Shown: piece after piece, positions 2,278 to 33,497 of the stretch
How the letters are laid out: every line of letters starts with the position of its first letter
Position numbering within the stretch: the first letter of the stretch is position 1
DNA from: Ignavibacteriota bacterium
GTDB taxonomy: Bacteria > Bacteroidota > Ignavibacteria > SZUA-365
Reading direction: 5' to 3'
DNA: 33,638 nt
NCBI GenBank assembly: GCA_016218045.1
Contig: JACRFB010000043.1
Location: forward strand, 1 to 33,638
Position numbers and translations under genes: made by a program
Notes under the pieces: model-generated
What the model saw: the letters and a program-made list of their open reading frames with translations, nothing else
The model's database searches: none
Told to the model about the DNA's origin: nothing

Positions 2278-5200
2278 ATGAATCGTGTGTATGCGCTGTA
2301 TCACACCGTGCTCCCGCTCCTCCTGGGACTCTGTCTCCTCCTCCCCACAGGAACGTCCGCGCAGCCGACGCTGAACTTCAAAAAGATCGTCAGCAACTGG
2401 CCGACGATCGCGCTGCACTTTTCGGTGCGCTGCAACGGGAAACGAATCACCACGGCCGACAAGAGTCTCTTCACGGTGTATGAAAACGGGGAGAAGATCG
2501 GCGACTTCGAACTCTGGTGCCCCGATTCTCTGCTCTCCTGCCCCGTCTCCGTGGCACTGGTCTTCGACGGCAGCGGCAGCATGGGAAACGGCGGTGTGGC
2601 AATCGTGAAAGAAGCCGGGAAGGTGTTCGTCGATCTTATGGACGGCGTGAAGGACGAGGCCGCGGTCATCTGGTTCGCCAACGGCGTGACGCTTCATCAA
2701 GGCATGACGACAAGCAAATCCGCCCTGCGCGCGGCCATCGATGCAGGACAAAGCAGTGGCGGCACAGCGTTGTGGGACGGGGTGTATATGGGTATCACCG
2801 AGGTGATGAACAAGGCCTCGAATCCCTGTCGCGCGGTGATAGTCCTGACCGATGGGCAGGACAACAGATCGTCACACACGTTGGATCAGACCATCGCGTA
2901 CGCAAAGGCGGCCAAGATCCCCGTCTACACCATCGGTTTCGGTGCGAATGCCACGTCAGGATTAAAACGGCTCGCCACCGAGACGGGCGGAACCTACATC
3001 GATGTCAGCAGACCGGAAGAACTGATCGACGTCTATGAGTCGCTTATCTTCGCGATCAGCGGCGCACAGGATTGTATCATCACCTACAAGGCGCGCTGCA
3101 CGGGCAAGGGCGAACCGCTGCGCTCGGTGGATCTCACCGCGCTGCTCTGCTCGGGAAGCGACACAAAAACGCGCACGTACATCGCGCCCTACGATTCAAG
3201 CATGGCACGCGCCATCACCATGCGGCTCGGATCCGAAAAAGGCATCGACGGAGAGGACATCACGATTCCGCTGCAACTCCTCAGTCCGCTCACCGACGAT
3301 CTGTTATTCCCATCCACCATCACCTTCCAGTACGATCCCGCGTGTATGGAATTTCGCGCGTTCCGCTTCCCTGTTACATCGCCGCTTGCCGGGATCAAAT
3401 ACACCGTCGACCGGAGTGCCGGACTCGTCACCGTGCGCACCACGGAGCAGCGCAGCATCACCACCACCGACCTCCCGGCCCTGCTCGCCGAACTTGTCTT
3501 CCGGCCCTATGAACCCTATGGCAAAGACACGACGTGCTGCGAGGTGAACATCGGCAGTTGGCTGTTCACCGGCGGCTGTCTCAAGGTGTTCGCCACACGC
3601 GGGAAGATCTGCGTACCTCCGGTGTCGAAATTGCCCGAGCTGACTCTGCTCTGCACCGTGCCCGATTCGCTGCACTACGAGTCCTCGGCGGGAACGTATG
3701 CACCGAATCCCTTCGATGTGCGCCTGACGTGTATCAACCGCGGCCGCGTGCCCGCGTACAACACCATCGCCACGCTGTACCTGCCCGCCGACGTATCGCT
3801 CGCCGATCCGGCCGATTCGCTCCGCAGGCATTTCCCCTCGCCGCTCGCACCGTGGAAGACGGGGAATCCGATTCCCAGCGTGTCCTGGCCCGTGAAATAC
3901 GGTGCGGTTCCTAAACGCGACCGCTTCCTCGATTTCCGTTTTGTTGTCACCTCGGTGGCGGAGAACGGCGTGCCCATCGATACAAACGAAACGTGGTGCC
4001 GTGTGCGTGTACCCGGGCAGGCGCCGGATCTGCTCTGCGAGATCACGCTGCCCGATTCGCTTTCAGTCGACGCATCCGGAGCGGATCTCACACCGAATCC
4101 GTTTCCGATCACCTACCGTGTATGGAACAGCAGCAGGCAGATGATCAGCATCCAAAACATCGCGCTGCGCTACCCCACGGCCGACGGACTCAGACTCGAT
4201 CCCAACACGCCGCGTGTGCGTGTGGTGAATCGTGTGCTGGCACCGGGCGATTCGATTGTGGTGGACTGGCTCATGTTTGTGGACGCGCAGAGAACGCCGC
4301 GCAACCTCGCGATCTCGGCCGTGGCGATCGACAGCGACAACTTCCCCGTCGAATGTGAACGGATGGTGCGGATTCCCGCCGTCACCACACTGCTCCGGTG
4401 TAACACCATCGCGACGCCGTCGGATGTGCACGTGCTGCCTGACGGTGTGCGCGACACTGCGGCCGTGTGGACAATCAGCACCGAGCTGCATAATGCGGGT
4501 CCGCTTCCCGTGCTCGATCTTTCGGTGGCGATCCGCCTCGCCGATTCGACGCTGGCGGCGTTGCAAGAATTCGATCCGTCCTTCCCCGACAACAGCAATC
4601 CGCGCATGGTGCCTCTGATATTCCCGAACGGCAGCGCCATCGTGGAGTGGAGGTTCCGCGCCACCGCGGCCGCGGCCGATGGTCTGCGGCACGATATAGC
4701 GTATGGAATTTCCTACTCCAACAAGGATGTTGTCGTCTCCGACGCACGCTGCGGTGTGCAGGTGGCGCTTGCCCCCAGGCCTCCCGACGTTGTGCTGGGC
4801 TGCGCGCTGACGGGACCCGACACCATCTACTTCGACACCGATCACTACACGCCGAATCCCTTCGCCATCGGCCTCACGATACACAACAGCGGCTCCACGA
4901 CCGCACGCAGTGTGCGCGCGATGGTACTGCAGGACACACGGTTCAACATCCTCTCCCCCGCGCTTCGTGAATACGGAGACGTGCGCGGTGGAAGCACAGT
5001 GGCCGTCGACTCGTTGAACAATCCCCCGTTCTTCCTGCACATGAACACACGCGAGCGTGACGGCTACGACACTGTGCGTGTGCTGCTTGTGGCGGAGGGA
5101 CAGGCGCCGGTCATCTGTGAACTCCCCATCTTTGTCCTGCACGAGCGGCGGCCGAGTTTTCGGATGTCTTGCACGGCAAATCCGGAACGGCTCGTCTTCA

Positions 5201-7470
5201 ACGAGAGCATCGACGACTATGTGCCGAATCCGTTCACGGTGACAAGCACCGTCTATCAGGATGGTGAAACCGATGCGGAGCAGTGTGTGCTGCTGTTTGT
5301 GGGTCCGCCGCGCTTTACTCCGGCGGACGACTCACCCATCGTCACAGTCGGCATCAACGGTCGTCTTGCGTCGGGTGATTCCGTGAAACATGTGTGGCAC
5401 ATCACCGCCTTACCGCGCAGTGTGGGCGGCTGGGATACGCTCGTGTATCAGGTACAGGGGCGCGGCGGACTCGGCCACCGCCTCATCATCGGCGAGTGCC
5501 GGGTGCCGGTGTACGTGCCCGCGGCGCGCACAGCGCTGTACGGCATCGACTGTGCGTCGCCCGACACGCTGGGTCTCGATCCCGACGGCGGCAGGTACGT
5601 GCCCGATCCGTTCGAGATCACGGCGCGAATCCGGAACACCGGCTCGGCCACGGGGCGTGATCTGCGTGTCACCGCCCTGTTGCCTCCCGGTCTTCTGTTC
5701 GCACAGGGAGAAACGGCCGAGCATGCAGCGGGCGACCTCGATGTCGATTCCGTGTTTGTCACACGCTGGCTCGTGCGGCCCGCGGCACACACCGAGCCGG
5801 GCGGACGCACGCTGCGCGTCTGTTTCCGTGTGACGGATGCGCGCCGCAACAGCGCCGAGTGCTGCGACGATACACATGTGCCGCCGTTGCGCGCTGCGAC
5901 AGTGGCCCTCGACTGCGCGGCCGAGTCGTCCGAACTGCGCGTGAATACCACACGCGCTGTATACGAGCCGAATCCGTTCCGTGTCACGGCGGTGTTGCAC
6001 AACAACGGCGAGCGCCCCGTCTCGCGTGTCAGCATCCGCTGCATCCCGTCCACACACGACGTGTACCTCGCGGATTCGAGCGAGCGTTTCCTTGCGGCGC
6101 GCCTCGAGGCGCACCGCAGCAGCGACATGATATCGTGGCAGGTTGTTGCGCAGCCGCGCACGTCGCGTGGTGATGTGGTCTTCCGGTTCATCACAACGTC
6201 CGACGACGCTCCGGCCGCCGAGTGCAGCACCGTGGTCGGCATTCCCGCGCTCGGCGCACCCGATCTGCACTGCGCGGTCTCCACATCGATGACTCGCACC
6301 GGAGACACGTTGTACTTCGATCGTTCGATCGAGGATTTTCGCGACGATGTCGGTACGCGGGGTTACGCGGACAGGTACAATGTGTGTGTCATTCATGCCG
6401 ACGTGTCCAACAGCGGTGCTGTATCCGCACAGCGTATGATCGCAACGCTGCTTCCGCCTCCGGGCATGTCGTTGGACGATGGCGAGAACGCGGTGCGCAC
6501 CCTCGCCGACATTGCCCCAAACGGAAGCGCGCGTGTGTCGTGGAAACTGCGCCCCTTGCGGCAACCGATGAACGTGACGGGAAACGTGGAGGTGATCGTG
6601 AACGCCGAGAACGCTGTGCAGAGCCGTTGCGCGCGGCGTGTCACCATTCACGGTGCGCCCAAGGCCGTGCGCGTGCGTATCTCGCGCGATATCACCGGAC
6701 GCACGGGTGAAAAAGTATCCGTGCCGATATTCGTCGACACCACGTACGGACGCGAGATCACGAGTTACAAGCTGAACGTCTCCTTCGATCCTGATGCGAT
6801 CCGATTCATCGATGCTGTGAGTGTGAACAGCGCGACGGGGCGCGGCTGGAACGGTCCGCGCAGCACGCTGTGGCGTGACGCGGGTGGTACGGATCCGTCG
6901 CGCGAGACCATCGTGCGCATCGAGGACAACACCTTCGAGGCGCCGCTGAATCTGCGGCGCGAAGCGCTGCTTGTGCGCCTGGTATTCGAAGTTGTGTACA
7001 CGGGCGGACCCACGGCCATCGGCGCCTTTGTCGACTCGCTGCGTTTTGTCGACATCTTCACCGCGGGGGGAAGCGGGGGCGGACGTGTGCTCGCCTCGTC
7101 GATGAATTCGCACGACGATGCGGCTCCTGCGCCGGACCTGCGCCTGATCACCGAGGACGGCTTCTACATCGTCTCCGGCGACTGCCTCCCCGCGCTGCAG
7201 CTCAAGACCGAGCCGACACTCTCACAGAATTCTCCCAATCCCTACAATCCCGCAACCACCATTCGTTACACACTGCCCGCCACCACACACGTACGCCTCG
7301 CGGTGTACGACACCTTCGGGCGCGAACTATCCGTGCTCGTCGATGCCGAACAAGTGGCGGGCGAACACTCTGCCGTCTTCCACGCCGGCTCCCTCCCCAG
7401 CGGCGTGTACCTCTACCGTCTCACCACGCCTTCCTCGTCCTTATCCCGTTCCATGCTACTCGCGCGATGA
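2278..7470 (+). CDS. Giant VWA-domain surface protein with 'PNPF' repeats and T9SS sorting domain
   Basis: A 1730-residue exported protein, probably an adhesin or surface scaffold. A signal peptide (MNRVYALYHTVLPLLLG... ending near TSAQ) supports the ATG at 2278. A von Willebrand A domain (about 92-260) has the metal-site motif DGSGSMG. Next comes a cohesin-like beta domain (about 310-430), then roughly eight repeats (about 455-1460). Each begins with a 'L-x-C ... PDSL' strand, has 'Y-x-PNPF' and 'N-x-G' turns, and closes with a second Cys before the next unit ('CRVRVP', 'CERMVRIP'), suggesting one disulfide per repeat. A second cohesin-like domain (about 1463-1605) and a type A T9SS sorting domain (about 1645-1730, 'SQNSPNPYNPATTIRY') follow. 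The sorting domain is nearly identical in DNA to that of the next gene. The ligand is unknown. Confidence 0.85.
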   Translation: MNRVYALYHTVLPLLLGLCLLLPTGTSAQPTLNFKKIVSNWPTIALHFSVRCNGKRITTADKSLFTVYENGEKIGDFELWCPDSLLSCPVSVALVFDGSGSMGNGGVAIVKEAGKVFVDLMDGVKDEAAVIWFANGVTLHQGMTTSKSALRAAIDAGQSSGGTALWDGVYMGITEVMNKASNPCRAVIVLTDGQDNRSSHTLDQTIAYAKAAKIPVYTIGFGANATSGLKRLATETGGTYIDVSRPEELIDVYESLIFAISGAQDCIITYKARCTGKGEPLRSVDLTALLCSGSDTKTRTYIAPYDSSMARAITMRLGSEKGIDGEDITIPLQLLSPLTDDLLFPSTITFQYDPACMEFRAFRFPVTSPLAGIKYTVDRSAGLVTVRTTEQRSITTTDLPALLAELVFRPYEPYGKDTTCCEVNIGSWLFTGGCLKVFATRGKICVPPVSKLPELTLLCTVPDSLHYESSAGTYAPNPFDVRLTCINRGRVPAYNTIATLYLPADVSLADPADSLRRHFPSPLAPWKTGNPIPSVSWPVKYGAVPKRDRFLDFRFVVTSVAENGVPIDTNETWCRVRVPGQAPDLLCEITLPDSLSVDASGADLTPNPFPITYRVWNSSRQMISIQNIALRYPTADGLRLDPNTPRVRVVNRVLAPGDSIVVDWLMFVDAQRTPRNLAISAVAIDSDNFPVECERMVRIPAVTTLLRCNTIATPSDVHVLPDGVRDTAAVWTISTELHNAGPLPVLDLSVAIRLADSTLAALQEFDPSFPDNSNPRMVPLIFPNGSAIVEWRFRATAAAADGLRHDIAYGISYSNKDVVVSDARCGVQVALAPRPPDVVLGCALTGPDTIYFDTDHYTPNPFAIGLTIHNSGSTTARSVRAMVLQDTRFNILSPALREYGDVRGGSTVAVDSLNNPPFFLHMNTRERDGYDTVRVLLVAEGQAPVICELPIFVLHERRPSFRMSCTANPERLVFNESIDDYVPNPFTVTSTVYQDGETDAEQCVLLFVGPPRFTPADDSPIVTVGINGRLASGDSVKHVWHITALPRSVGGWDTLVYQVQGRGGLGHRLIIGECRVPVYVPAARTALYGIDCASPDTLGLDPDGGRYVPDPFEITARIRNTGSATGRDLRVTALLPPGLLFAQGETAEHAAGDLDVDSVFVTRWLVRPAAHTEPGGRTLRVCFRVTDARRNSAECCDDTHVPPLRAATVALDCAAESSELRVNTTRAVYEPNPFRVTAVLHNNGERPVSRVSIRCIPSTHDVYLADSSERFLAARLEAHRSSDMISWQVVAQPRTSRGDVVFRFITTSDDAPAAECSTVVGIPALGAPDLHCAVSTSMTRTGDTLYFDRSIEDFRDDVGTRGYADRYNVCVIHADVSNSGAVSAQRMIATLLPPPGMSLDDGENAVRTLADIAPNGSARVSWKLRPLRQPMNVTGNVEVIVNAENAVQSRCARRVTIHGAPKAVRVRISRDITGRTGEKVSVPIFVDTTYGREITSYKLNVSFDPDAIRFIDAVSVNSATGRGWNGPRSTLWRDAGGTDPSRETIVRIEDNTFEAPLNLRREALLVRLVFEVVYTGGPTAIGAFVDSLRFVDIFTAGGSGGGRVLASSMNSHDDAAPAPDLRLITEDGFYIVSGDCLPALQLKTEPTLSQNSPNPYNPATTIRYTLPATTHVRLAVYDTFGRELSVLVDAEQVAGEHSAVFHAGSLPSGVYLYRLTTPSSSLSRSMLLAR

Positions 7471-7486
7471 ATGCGTGTTGAAGAAA
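7300..7486 (+). repeat. Sorting-domain cassette, copy 1
   Basis: The last ~170 coding bases of the VWA gene, its stop codon and the 16 bases after it match 8855-9041 with no gap and about nine mismatches by eye (roughly 95% identity). The identity runs through the stop codon into non-coding DNA, so it is not explained by protein-level selection alone. It extends into the tandem array that follows. Confidence 0.9.
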
Positions 7487-7621
7487 GACGGTTAGACGAT
7501 TAGACGATTGGACGATTAGACGATTAGACGATTGGACGATTAGACGATTGGACGATTGGACGATTGGACGATTAGACGATTAGACGATTGGACGATTGGA
7601 CGATTGGACGATTGGACGATT
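7487..7621. repeat. 8-bp tandem array, 17 units
   Basis: Seventeen head-to-tail copies of gacgattR, in which R is A or G in an irregular order; the first unit is a variant (gacggtta) and the last lacks its final base. Non-coding. The companion array at 9042-9112 has nine units and is flanked by the same sequence on both sides. Confidence 0.95.
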
Positions 7622-7885
7622 CGCGGACCACGTACTTTCCACACCGCATCGATCACGCACTCGTGAAAAGGAGATACGTGTCACGTGGATACTTTTCACC
7701 TTGCTACCTTCCACACCGCATCGATCCCGCACTCGTGAAAAGTAGAAAGCAGTCAGGTATTGCCCGCAACAATTGTCGTACGACGGTGAGAGCACAACTT
7801 TCCGACCATCACAACAACCGCCGGCGGAACAAATCGTGTTGTTGATGTACATGCCACTTTAATGGCCTTTCGAAGGGTGAGAAAG
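7622..7885. repeat. Post-array repeat and leader of the next gene
   Basis: The first 33 bases (7622-7654) equal 9113-9145 exactly. The segment 'ctttccacaccgcatcgatc' occurs twice here (about 7635 and 7710), each followed by 'cgcactcgtgaaaag', with CACGT words between. From about 7750 to the next gene the sequence is unique, with no clear consensus promoter. A ribosome site GAAGGGTG (7872-7879) lies six bases before the ATG at 7886. Confidence 0.75.
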
Positions 7886-9025
7886 ATGAATCCTCGAGCA
7901 TCGTGCATTGTGAGAGTCCGTGTACTCATGGCCCTGCCTGTGTTACTCGCGGCCTCAGTGATATTGCATGCGCAGCCAAAACTGCACATGATCGGGCACG
8001 GCGGCATGAAGCCGATCCAGATCGACAGTATTCACGGTGGTTATCTCCCCTTCGAGTTCAGGATTCTTATTGCGAATGAGGGCAACGCGCCGGCGTACAA
8101 CGCATCGGTATTCATGCGTATGCCGCGTGATTGTGTATTCGCCGACTCATCGCAGACCCAGCGCGTGTACCTCCCGTCGCCACTCCCTGTCCTGTCGCCC
8201 GGCGATACTGCCTGCATCGTGACGTGGCTGTTCCGCGGAACACAAATCTATCAGTCTGATCGCACCGTGTATTTCGACTACACGATCGGCGGCTGCGATT
8301 CAAGCGGGACTCCGCTCGACAGCATCCAACTGTTGTGCAGTCTGAGATTTCCAGGCTTGCTTCCGCAGGTCGCCATTAAAATTCACGCACCGGATTCCCT
8401 TTCTGTCACCGGCGATGGATTGAATGTCGAACCGAATCCATTCCCGATTCTGATGTCTGTCAGGAACACCGGCTTCGTGAAGTGCAGGGCCACGCAGTTC
8501 GGTATCGTCGTGCCGCCTCCGGCCGGTGTATGGGTGGATCCGAACACACCACAAAACCAGCGCAAGATAGTCGACATCCCGGTACAGGACTCGCTCGACG
8601 TCTCATGGCTCCTCCATGTGGAGAACAGAGAGACACGGCGTCGACTCGTAATAACCGTATTCGCATATACCGACGACACCAATGTGGATTCGGCCACGGA
8701 CACCGTGGAGATCCCGGCCATCCGCATCACGGGAACCCACGAGCAGACCACAACATTTCCTGCGTCTCCATACCTCTTGCCAAATACGCCGAATCCATTC
8801 CGTGACATGACGCGGATCCGGTATTCCCTGCCCGCCACAGTGCGGACACATCTTGCGGTGTACGACACCTTCGGGCGCGAACTGTCCGTGCTCGTGGATG
8901 CCGAACAAGCCGCGGGCGAACACTCTGTCGTCTTCCACGCCGGCTCCCTCCCCAGCGGCGTGTACCTCTACCGTCTCAGCACACCGTCCTCGTCCTTATC
9001 CCGTTCCATGCTGCTCGCGCGATGA
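7886..9025 (+). CDS. T9SS-sorted secreted protein with two 'PNPF' repeats
   Basis: A 379-residue exported protein, a short relative of the preceding giant. The ATG at 7886 is chosen over 7862 because it has the better ribosome site and puts a signal peptide (VRVLMALPVLLAASVILHAQ) near the N-terminus. Two repeats follow. The first ('YLPFEFRILIANEGNAPAYN') lacks the usual Cys at its start; the second has 'PDSLSVTGDGLNVEPNPF' and 'RNTGF'. There is no VWA domain. It ends in a type A T9SS sorting domain ('NTPNPFRDMTRIRYSLP' to 'SRSMLLAR'), whose DNA nearly matches that of the upstream gene. It is likely exposed on the cell surface or released. Both genes may act together, the shorter one as accessory subunit, but that is inference. 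Confidence 0.8.
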   Translation: MNPRASCIVRVRVLMALPVLLAASVILHAQPKLHMIGHGGMKPIQIDSIHGGYLPFEFRILIANEGNAPAYNASVFMRMPRDCVFADSSQTQRVYLPSPLPVLSPGDTACIVTWLFRGTQIYQSDRTVYFDYTIGGCDSSGTPLDSIQLLCSLRFPGLLPQVAIKIHAPDSLSVTGDGLNVEPNPFPILMSVRNTGFVKCRATQFGIVVPPPAGVWVDPNTPQNQRKIVDIPVQDSLDVSWLLHVENRETRRRLVITVFAYTDDTNVDSATDTVEIPAIRITGTHEQTTTFPASPYLLPNTPNPFRDMTRIRYSLPATVRTHLAVYDTFGRELSVLVDAEQAAGEHSVVFHAGSLPSGVYLYRLSTPSSSLSRSMLLAR

Positions 9026-9041
9026 ATGCGTGTTGAAGAAA
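8855..9041 (+). repeat. Sorting-domain cassette, copy 2
   Basis: Pairs with 7300-7486 at a constant offset of 1555 bases without indels. Upstream of 8855 the match drops sharply although the proteins stay similar, so there is a boundary inside the coding region. Confidence 0.9.
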
Positions 9042-9112
9042 GACCGTTAGACGATTAGACGATTAGACGATTGGACGATTAGACGATTGGACGATTAGAC
9101 GATTAGACGATT
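9042..9112. repeat. 8-bp tandem array, 9 units
   Basis: Nine copies of gacgattR (first unit gaccgtta, last unit truncated), placed 16 bases after the stop codon exactly as in the 17-unit array at 7487-7621. Confidence 0.95.
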
Positions 9113-9309
9113 CGCGGACCACGTACTTTCCACACCGCATCGATCCCGCTCCCGCGAAAAGTAGAAACGTGTCACGTTGCTACTTTCCACATGGCTACGA
9201 AACACACACGCAGCAGACCCCACCGCCCTGCATCGCCCACACCGCCCTCACCAGATCCAACCCCGGCCTGAGAAAAATTACGAGACAAAATCCGCGAGAG
9301 GCGAGCAAA
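9113..9309. other. Repeat-derived spacer after the second array
   Basis: Begins with the 33-base flank shared with 7622-7654, followed by words of the CACGT/'gctactttccac' family (about 9165-9200). From about 9200 the sequence is unique and has no recognisable gene. Confidence 0.6.
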
Positions 9310-10585: not shown

Positions 10586-10718
10586 CTCAGTGAGACACAG
10601 TTCCGTCGCACTTCGACTCCGCTCAGTGAGACACAGATTCGTCGCTCCGCGTTCCTACTCCCTACTCCCCACTCCCTACTCCCTACTTCCTACTTCCTAC
10701 TCCCCACTCCCTACTCCG
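10586..10718. repeat. Direct repeat pair and 'ctccctact' low-complexity tract
   Basis: Two 24-base copies starting 'ctcagtgagacacag' (10586-10609 and 10622-10645), 36 bases apart, separated by 'cttcgactccg'. They are followed by about 65 bases of pyrimidine-rich near-tandem units ('tccctactcc', 'ttcctac', 'ccccactcc') at 10651-10717. Related tracts occur at 17042-17080 and 33350-33497. Confidence 0.8.
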
Positions 10719-33344: not shown

Positions 33345-33497
33345 TCGAGTCAGGAGCTAGGAGCTGGGAACGAGGAACTGGGAACTGGGAACTAGAGGAT
33401 AGGAAATAGGAAACGGAAAACAGGAGACATGAACTCACACAGTGACTGTCTCCTGTTCCCATTTTTCCCAACTCCCAACTCCCAGCTCCTAACTCCT
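33345..33497. repeat. Low-complexity inverted repeat around the iorAB terminator
   Basis: The left arm (about 33350-33412) has 'aggagctaggagctggga', 'gaactgggaactggga' units; the right arm (about 33461-33497) has the complementary 'cccaactcccaactcccag' and 'ctcctaactcct'. The whole is an imperfect large inverted repeat with the terminator stem at its centre. Same word family as 10651-10717 and 17042-17083. Confidence 0.8.
33419..33457 (+). terminator. Terminator hairpin after iorAB
   Basis: Perfect 11-bp stem AACAGGAGACA / TGTCTCCTGTT (33419-33429 and 33447-33457) with a 17-base loop that contains its own short TCAC/GTGA pairing, followed after four bases by a run of five T residues. Confidence 0.6.

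Follow-up and report, generated by a model that had tools for sequence, protein, structure and literature searches.

The window, i.e., the whole stretch of 33,638 nucleotides that was analysed, carries two adjacent genes that both encode cargo proteins of the type IX secretion system (T9SS). The product of gene A, of about 1,730 residues, combines a VWA domain (PF00092, 3.3e-18) with repeated CARDB/NEW3-like domains. Its open frame starts at 2164, and the likelier start codon is the ATG at 2278, which lies ahead of a hydrophobic leader. Such leaders are visible in the translations of both genes. The body of gene B aligns with one of the gene A repeats at 31% identity over about 240 residues (E about 3e-34) and is a distant paralogue of those repeats; tblastn against other named genomes returned no relatives of gene B. 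Both proteins end in a T9SS type A sorting domain, hereafter the tag, recognised at the extreme C-terminus by TIGR04183 with 27.6 bits for gene A and 26.5 bits for gene B (cut-off 23). The corresponding Pfam matches (PF18962) score 20.1 and 22.1 bits, below the gathering score of 27, with E-values of 7.9e-4 and 1.9e-4, and agree in location with the NCBIfam call. Because the same genome encodes SprA/Sov (TIGR04189, 1071 bits in one frame) and eight PorV-family genes above cut-off, the secretion system itself can be taken as present, and sorting domains number at least 150 in this genome. At the edge of the window, a truncated frame (2-499) adds a third cargo gene of the T9SS (TIGR04183, 39.6 bits), whose tag is not homogenised with those of genes A and B. 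The features of the locus are as follows.

2278..7470, + strand: cargo gene A, encoding a VWA domain (PF00092), a series of CARDB/NEW3-like repeats and, at the C-terminus, a type A sorting domain (TIGR04183)
7234..7467, + strand: sorting domain of gene A (TIGR04183)
7297..7489, + strand: pre-array part of copy A of the copied tract; comprises the 57 final sorting-domain codons, the stop codon and 19 non-coding bases
7490..7621, + strand: 8-bp tandem array GACGATTR, about 17 units, copy A
7622..7707, + strand: 3′ flank of copy A, corresponding to the 3′ end of the copied tract; first 33 bases identical, weaker after
7886..9025, + strand: cargo gene B, about 380 amino acids, with a C-terminal type A sorting domain (TIGR04183)
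8789..9022, + strand: sorting domain of gene B (TIGR04183)
8852..9044, + strand: pre-array part of copy B of the copied tract; differs from copy A at 10 of 193 positions
9045..9112, + strand: 8-bp tandem array, about 8 units, copy B
9113..9198, + strand: 3′ flank of copy B

The near-identical 3′ piece shared by the two adjacent cargo genes is real. Positions 7297-7489 and 8852-9044 match without gaps at 183 of 193 bases (offset 1555), and copy B was retrieved by a DNA search of the whole genome at E = 3.8e-83, which excludes chance. The first-pass annotation of this DNA, which had estimated about 95% identity with some nine mismatches in 187 bp and no gaps, was therefore close to the actual figures. 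It had also placed 16 non-coding bases within the match and let it span the sorting domain; a non-coding stretch is indeed present but comprises 19 bases after the TGA (7471-7489), all identical in copy B, and the tract takes in only the last 57 of about 78 sorting-domain codons. Its 5′ edge lies 63 bases into the TIGR04183 match (7234-7449), and the first quarter of the domain is gene-specific in both A and B. Upstream of this edge, identity falls to background within a few codons, with 29 matches per 30 bases at 7300, 20 at 7285 and mostly 6-16 farther upstream, in keeping with the divergence previously described above the cassette. The reported continuation of the match into the 8-bp array and an identical 33-bp flank likewise holds: after the array, 7622-7654 and 9113-9145 agree at 33 of 33 bases (offset 1491), and similarity then drops, with 11 mismatches in the 86 bases up to 7707.

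The comparison of synonymous divergence (pS) inside and upstream of the cassette, for which equality had been named as the outcome expected of plain duplication, gave unequal values of 0.15 and 0.74. Over the 57 cassette codons, dS is 0.17 and pN 0.02, while pN reaches 0.42 in the 31 codons directly upstream, where synonymous sites are saturated, so that the contrast gives only a lower bound. When the full last 78 codons are taken, pS is 0.30 against 0.73 for the body (0.67 with a longer alignment, Fisher 2e-6), body alignments of the two genes being poor at 21-31% identity. Since pS is low inside the cassette and saturated upstream of it, simple gene duplication does not explain the cassette.

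The array that interrupts the tract, GACGAT(T/C)(A/G), belongs to an intergenic family found genome-wide, with 178 three-unit matches against 0 for a reversed control pattern. It occurs on contigs C5, C7, C10, C11, C12, C24, C28, C30 and others, and arrays behind a cargo gene are often on the strand of that gene (C5, C11, C12, C30, C43, C61 and C63). The arrays were considered as a requirement for homogenisation and rejected, as they are present behind non-cargo genes and absent in several homogenised pairs. A further 54-base copy (family D3) lies in the 3′ flank of gene A, 72 bases on. A repeat field at 533-1581 of the window combines tandem repeats of 7, 15 and 91 bp, made of ACGTGGAAAGTAGCAACGTGG-like units and repeated short segments; units resembling these recur downstream of the cassette (7622-7758) and at other genomic sites. 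Intergenic 7-bp tandem arrays are found at 10654-10717 and 33352-33496 (CCTACTC, AGGAACT, TCCCAAC).

The window's genome was screened for other paralogous cargo pairs in two ways. An all-pairs comparison of the stretches around 150 sorting domains, to which the window's second one was added, yielded further neighbouring pairs with matching tags and background identity upstream, namely 166348/168503 on contig C40 and the older pair 62421/64426 on C22; it yielded no distant pair of this kind. In the C40 pair, a 175-bp stretch (-213 to -38) is 96% identical, with divergence on both sides, and the bodies are 33% identical. The pS screen then covered 207 pairs with paralogous upstream regions (205 obtained by blastp and two added by hand, the A/B finding itself and C22), comparing pS in the tag with that in the preceding 200 codons and counting a pair as positive when the tag was lower at P<0.001. 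Low pS limited to the tag was found in five of the eight pairs less than 8 kb apart (A/B, C40 and three mutually dependent comparisons within a trio on C44) and in 0 of 196 other pairs (Fisher 2e-8, one of the near pairs being the hand-added A/B finding). Two further positive pairs, C5/C7 and C30/C61, involve contig ends, and their true distance is not given by the assembly. Many distant paralogues have equal pS in tag and body (e.g., 0.67/0.58 for C14/C57), which indicates that the tag is under no general constraint at its silent sites. The tags of C5/C7 and C30/C61 are strongly homogenised, and their position at contig ends, in a fragmented assembly of 72 contigs that looks metagenome-derived, suggests that short-read assemblies break at such 3′ modules, which are hence under-counted.

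The same pattern was found in all four related genomes sampled, three belonging to the same family and one to a different family within the class (G002, G004, G006 and G029). Positive pairs amount to 14 of 154 near and 3 of 233 far comparisons (Fisher 5e-4), in neighbouring clusters that were picked non-randomly among the best 150 HMM matches and in which pairs are not independent. Proximity is a weaker predictor in G029 (8/103 near versus 3/208 far, Fisher 0.007), where one of the three far positives lies in the same cluster, 9.7 kb away. Tag and body pS are 0.04 and 0.55 for genes 1 and 2 of cluster L172 (G004), 0.30 and 0.68 for L178 (G002), and 0.32 and 0.72 for L184 (G006); in G029, L275 (0.17/0.70), L272 (0.17/0.63) and L278 together span 0.17-0.26 in the tag and 0.63-0.75 in the body. 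Most 5′ edges of the matching stretches map to the interval from -290 to -234 relative to the stop codon, i.e., at or near the start of the domain, and the 3′ edges lie within the domain or up to about 120 bases past the stop. As in A/B, the tract crosses the coding boundary in L138, L171, L172, L184 and L278.

Cluster L278 of G029 is the strongest single case, with the same anatomy as A/B, i.e., tag, stop codon and 3′ non-coding DNA. Designated by their end positions, the bodies of 1662 and 5453 pair with each other (E=1e-49), as do those of 7379 and 9476 (E=9e-99), while the tags fall into two classes, {1662, 9476, 11361} and {5453, 7379}. Because the pairing of the bodies conflicts with the classes of the tags, tag and body must have different histories in this cluster. 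Genes 5453 and 7379 share the tag (pS 0.26) and the stop codon, followed by 100 identical bp of 3′ flank, and their bodies show no detectable relation (E=0.02). It is solely in this cluster that a direction of copying is implied; for A/B, the other tags of the genome reach at most 61% amino-acid identity to the converted part and do not distinguish gene A from gene B.

Altogether, these observations are best explained by short-tract gene conversion between nearby cargo genes that use the sorting domain as shared homology, a reading to which we give a probability of about 0.8. The event would have started from old, strongly diverged neighbours that both already encoded T9SS type A cargo. A short non-reciprocal recombination, either gene conversion or copying by template switch, may then have replaced the 3′ end of one gene with that of the other, from sorting-domain codon -57 through the stop codon, the 3′ non-coding bases and the 8-bp array to about 86 bases of flank. 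Homology at the 5′ junction would be supplied by the common sorting domain, while in A/B the 3′ end would lie beyond the array, whose unit number could have changed before, during or after the event. We infer conversion as the molecular process, and A/B would represent one case of a recurrent local process by which the sorting domains of neighbours are homogenised or exchanged while the bodies diverge. The earlier suggestion of recent copying or gene conversion thus holds as regards the copying of a 3′ cassette as opposed to plain duplication, given the pS contrast, the inclusion of non-coding DNA and the other neighbouring pairs, but "recent" applies only relative to the gene bodies (dS 0.17).

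The first-pass annotation had also viewed the copied cassette as a means of bringing new proteins to the cell surface. In a corresponding alternative, tag, stop codon, array and flank would form a unit that moves or duplicates and thereby carries export tags to new genes. The copied content is well defined and similar arrays stand behind several other cargo genes, yet this alternative is very unlikely. More than two copies, in different genes, would be expected of an element, and the genome-wide search for further copies that had been proposed returned only the two full ones; the other three matches are short sorting-domain stretches elsewhere (56, 116 and 31 bases, 71-90% identity), and no further copy sits on an unrelated gene of this genome. 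Neither terminal repeats nor target duplications were seen, the 5′ edge lies within the coding domain at homologous positions, and arrays also occur behind non-cargo genes and without a tag. Genes A and B each keep their own first part of the sorting domain, from which it follows that both were tagged before the event, and each recipient examined retains its own tag sequence or has tagged relatives. The process is local, and the proposed role in equipping new proteins for export is not borne out.

Lower still ranks an origin of the second copy by unequal crossing-over of sister chromosomes, with the 8-bp arrays or 3′ repeats as the sites of exchange and most of the duplicated gene lost afterwards. 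It would fit the unequal array unit numbers and the extra 54-base flank copy, which mark the region as recombinogenic; however, the body would have been duplicated as well, whereas the body of gene B and the first part of its tag are no recent copy of gene A, and other cases, such as C40, end inside the domain without an array. Lower again stands a tandem gene duplication in which the body diverged faster and the sorting domain was held by purifying selection on the protein. The bodies are indeed distant paralogues (31%) and sorting domains form a conserved family, but such selection does not account for silent sites that agree inside the cassette and are saturated beyond it, nor for non-coding DNA that is just as similar; moreover, paralogous pairs that are not neighbours lack the drop of pS in the tag, and the matching pair in L278 has unrelated bodies. 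As for an artefact of assembly or binning, which might be feared in a metagenome-derived genome of 72 contigs with some repeats at contig ends (C5, C7, C30 and C61), it is the least probable of these alternatives: the two copies, which lie on the same contig, are distinguished by 10 sites, by their array lengths and by the flanks on both sides, and equivalent homogenised cases are observed in genomes of one or two contigs (G004 and G029).

Conversion between nearby cargo genes, our preferred reading, has known relatives. Gene conversion between paralogues is established in Mycobacterium tuberculosis, where tracts in paralogous antigen genes have a median length of 101 bp and distance, from 1 kb to 2.14 Mb, is no predictor (PMC13061034), and module exchange is likewise known in Porphyromonas gingivalis cargo (PMC5266723). 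Both the M. tuberculosis events and the present ones involve short non-reciprocal tracts, here about 190-350 bp, between paralogous genes for surface or secreted proteins on one chromosome; in contrast to M. tuberculosis, the window's genome shows neighbours only, and the preferred tract is a secretion signal (PMC13061034). According to the accessible part of PMC5266723, the P. gingivalis gingipains and HagA are also T9SS cargo diversified by recombination of modules and by allelic exchange, but the modules described are of the catalytic and adhesin type, the sorting domain being a conserved end, and that part of the source makes no mention of tags being exchanged locally in P. gingivalis cargo. 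A further parallel is the displacement of rhs C-termini, in which the 3′ part of a surface-protein gene is exchanged between relatives; as described in the accessible part of PMC2935791, the rhs core is conserved and the tip is a variable toxin, whereas here the tip is a conserved export tag and the body is variable. The sorting domain that ends genes A and B (TIGR04183, PF18962) is in itself ordinary; what is unusual is that its DNA evolves with that of a neighbour and not with its carrier gene. A search confined to literature outside subscription found no paper in which the T9SS sorting domain is described as undergoing conversion or evolving in concert.

It is conceivable, at somewhat less than even odds, that sorting domain, stop codon and 3′ non-coding DNA constitute an exchangeable 3′ module in this class, such that neighbours, even with unrelated bodies, repeatedly gain each other's tag and tags evolve by neighbourhood instead of gene family, perhaps matching clustered cargo to one shuttle or anchoring route. 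Export tags would then be patched between neighbours faster than the cargo proteins change, in genomes of a class that carry at least 150 genes with type IX export tags. If tags are patched in this manner, trees and function predictions built on C-terminal domains would be misled, similarity of tags would be no evidence of kinship between cargo proteins, and the clustering of cargo genes would shape the evolution of secretion signals. A question thereby made testable is whether clustered cargo owes its common tag to the demands of the secretion machinery or to local recombination.

The tag is a hot spot and not the sole site of such patches. In sliding windows over neighbouring paralogous pairs, low-pS patches make up 6.7% of tag windows versus 1.3% of body windows, a contrast whose nominal P is too small because windows overlap and pairs within clusters are dependent. 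A hot spot at the tag is to be expected if the tag is the longest homology left between diverged neighbours. Patches outside the tag were found in bodies (L155 and L287) and at the N-terminus (L138 and L278). In L278, the first 35 or so codons of genes 7379 and 9476, corresponding to the signal-peptide region, are 100% identical and followed by saturated divergence, and the C-terminal tags of these two genes differ; the N-terminal export signal may thus be homogenised too. In L175 (G004), the genes ending at 2301 and 11825, which lie 9.5 kb apart, are identical throughout the tag and the 200 codons that precede it, a case of very recent whole-gene duplication or conversion.
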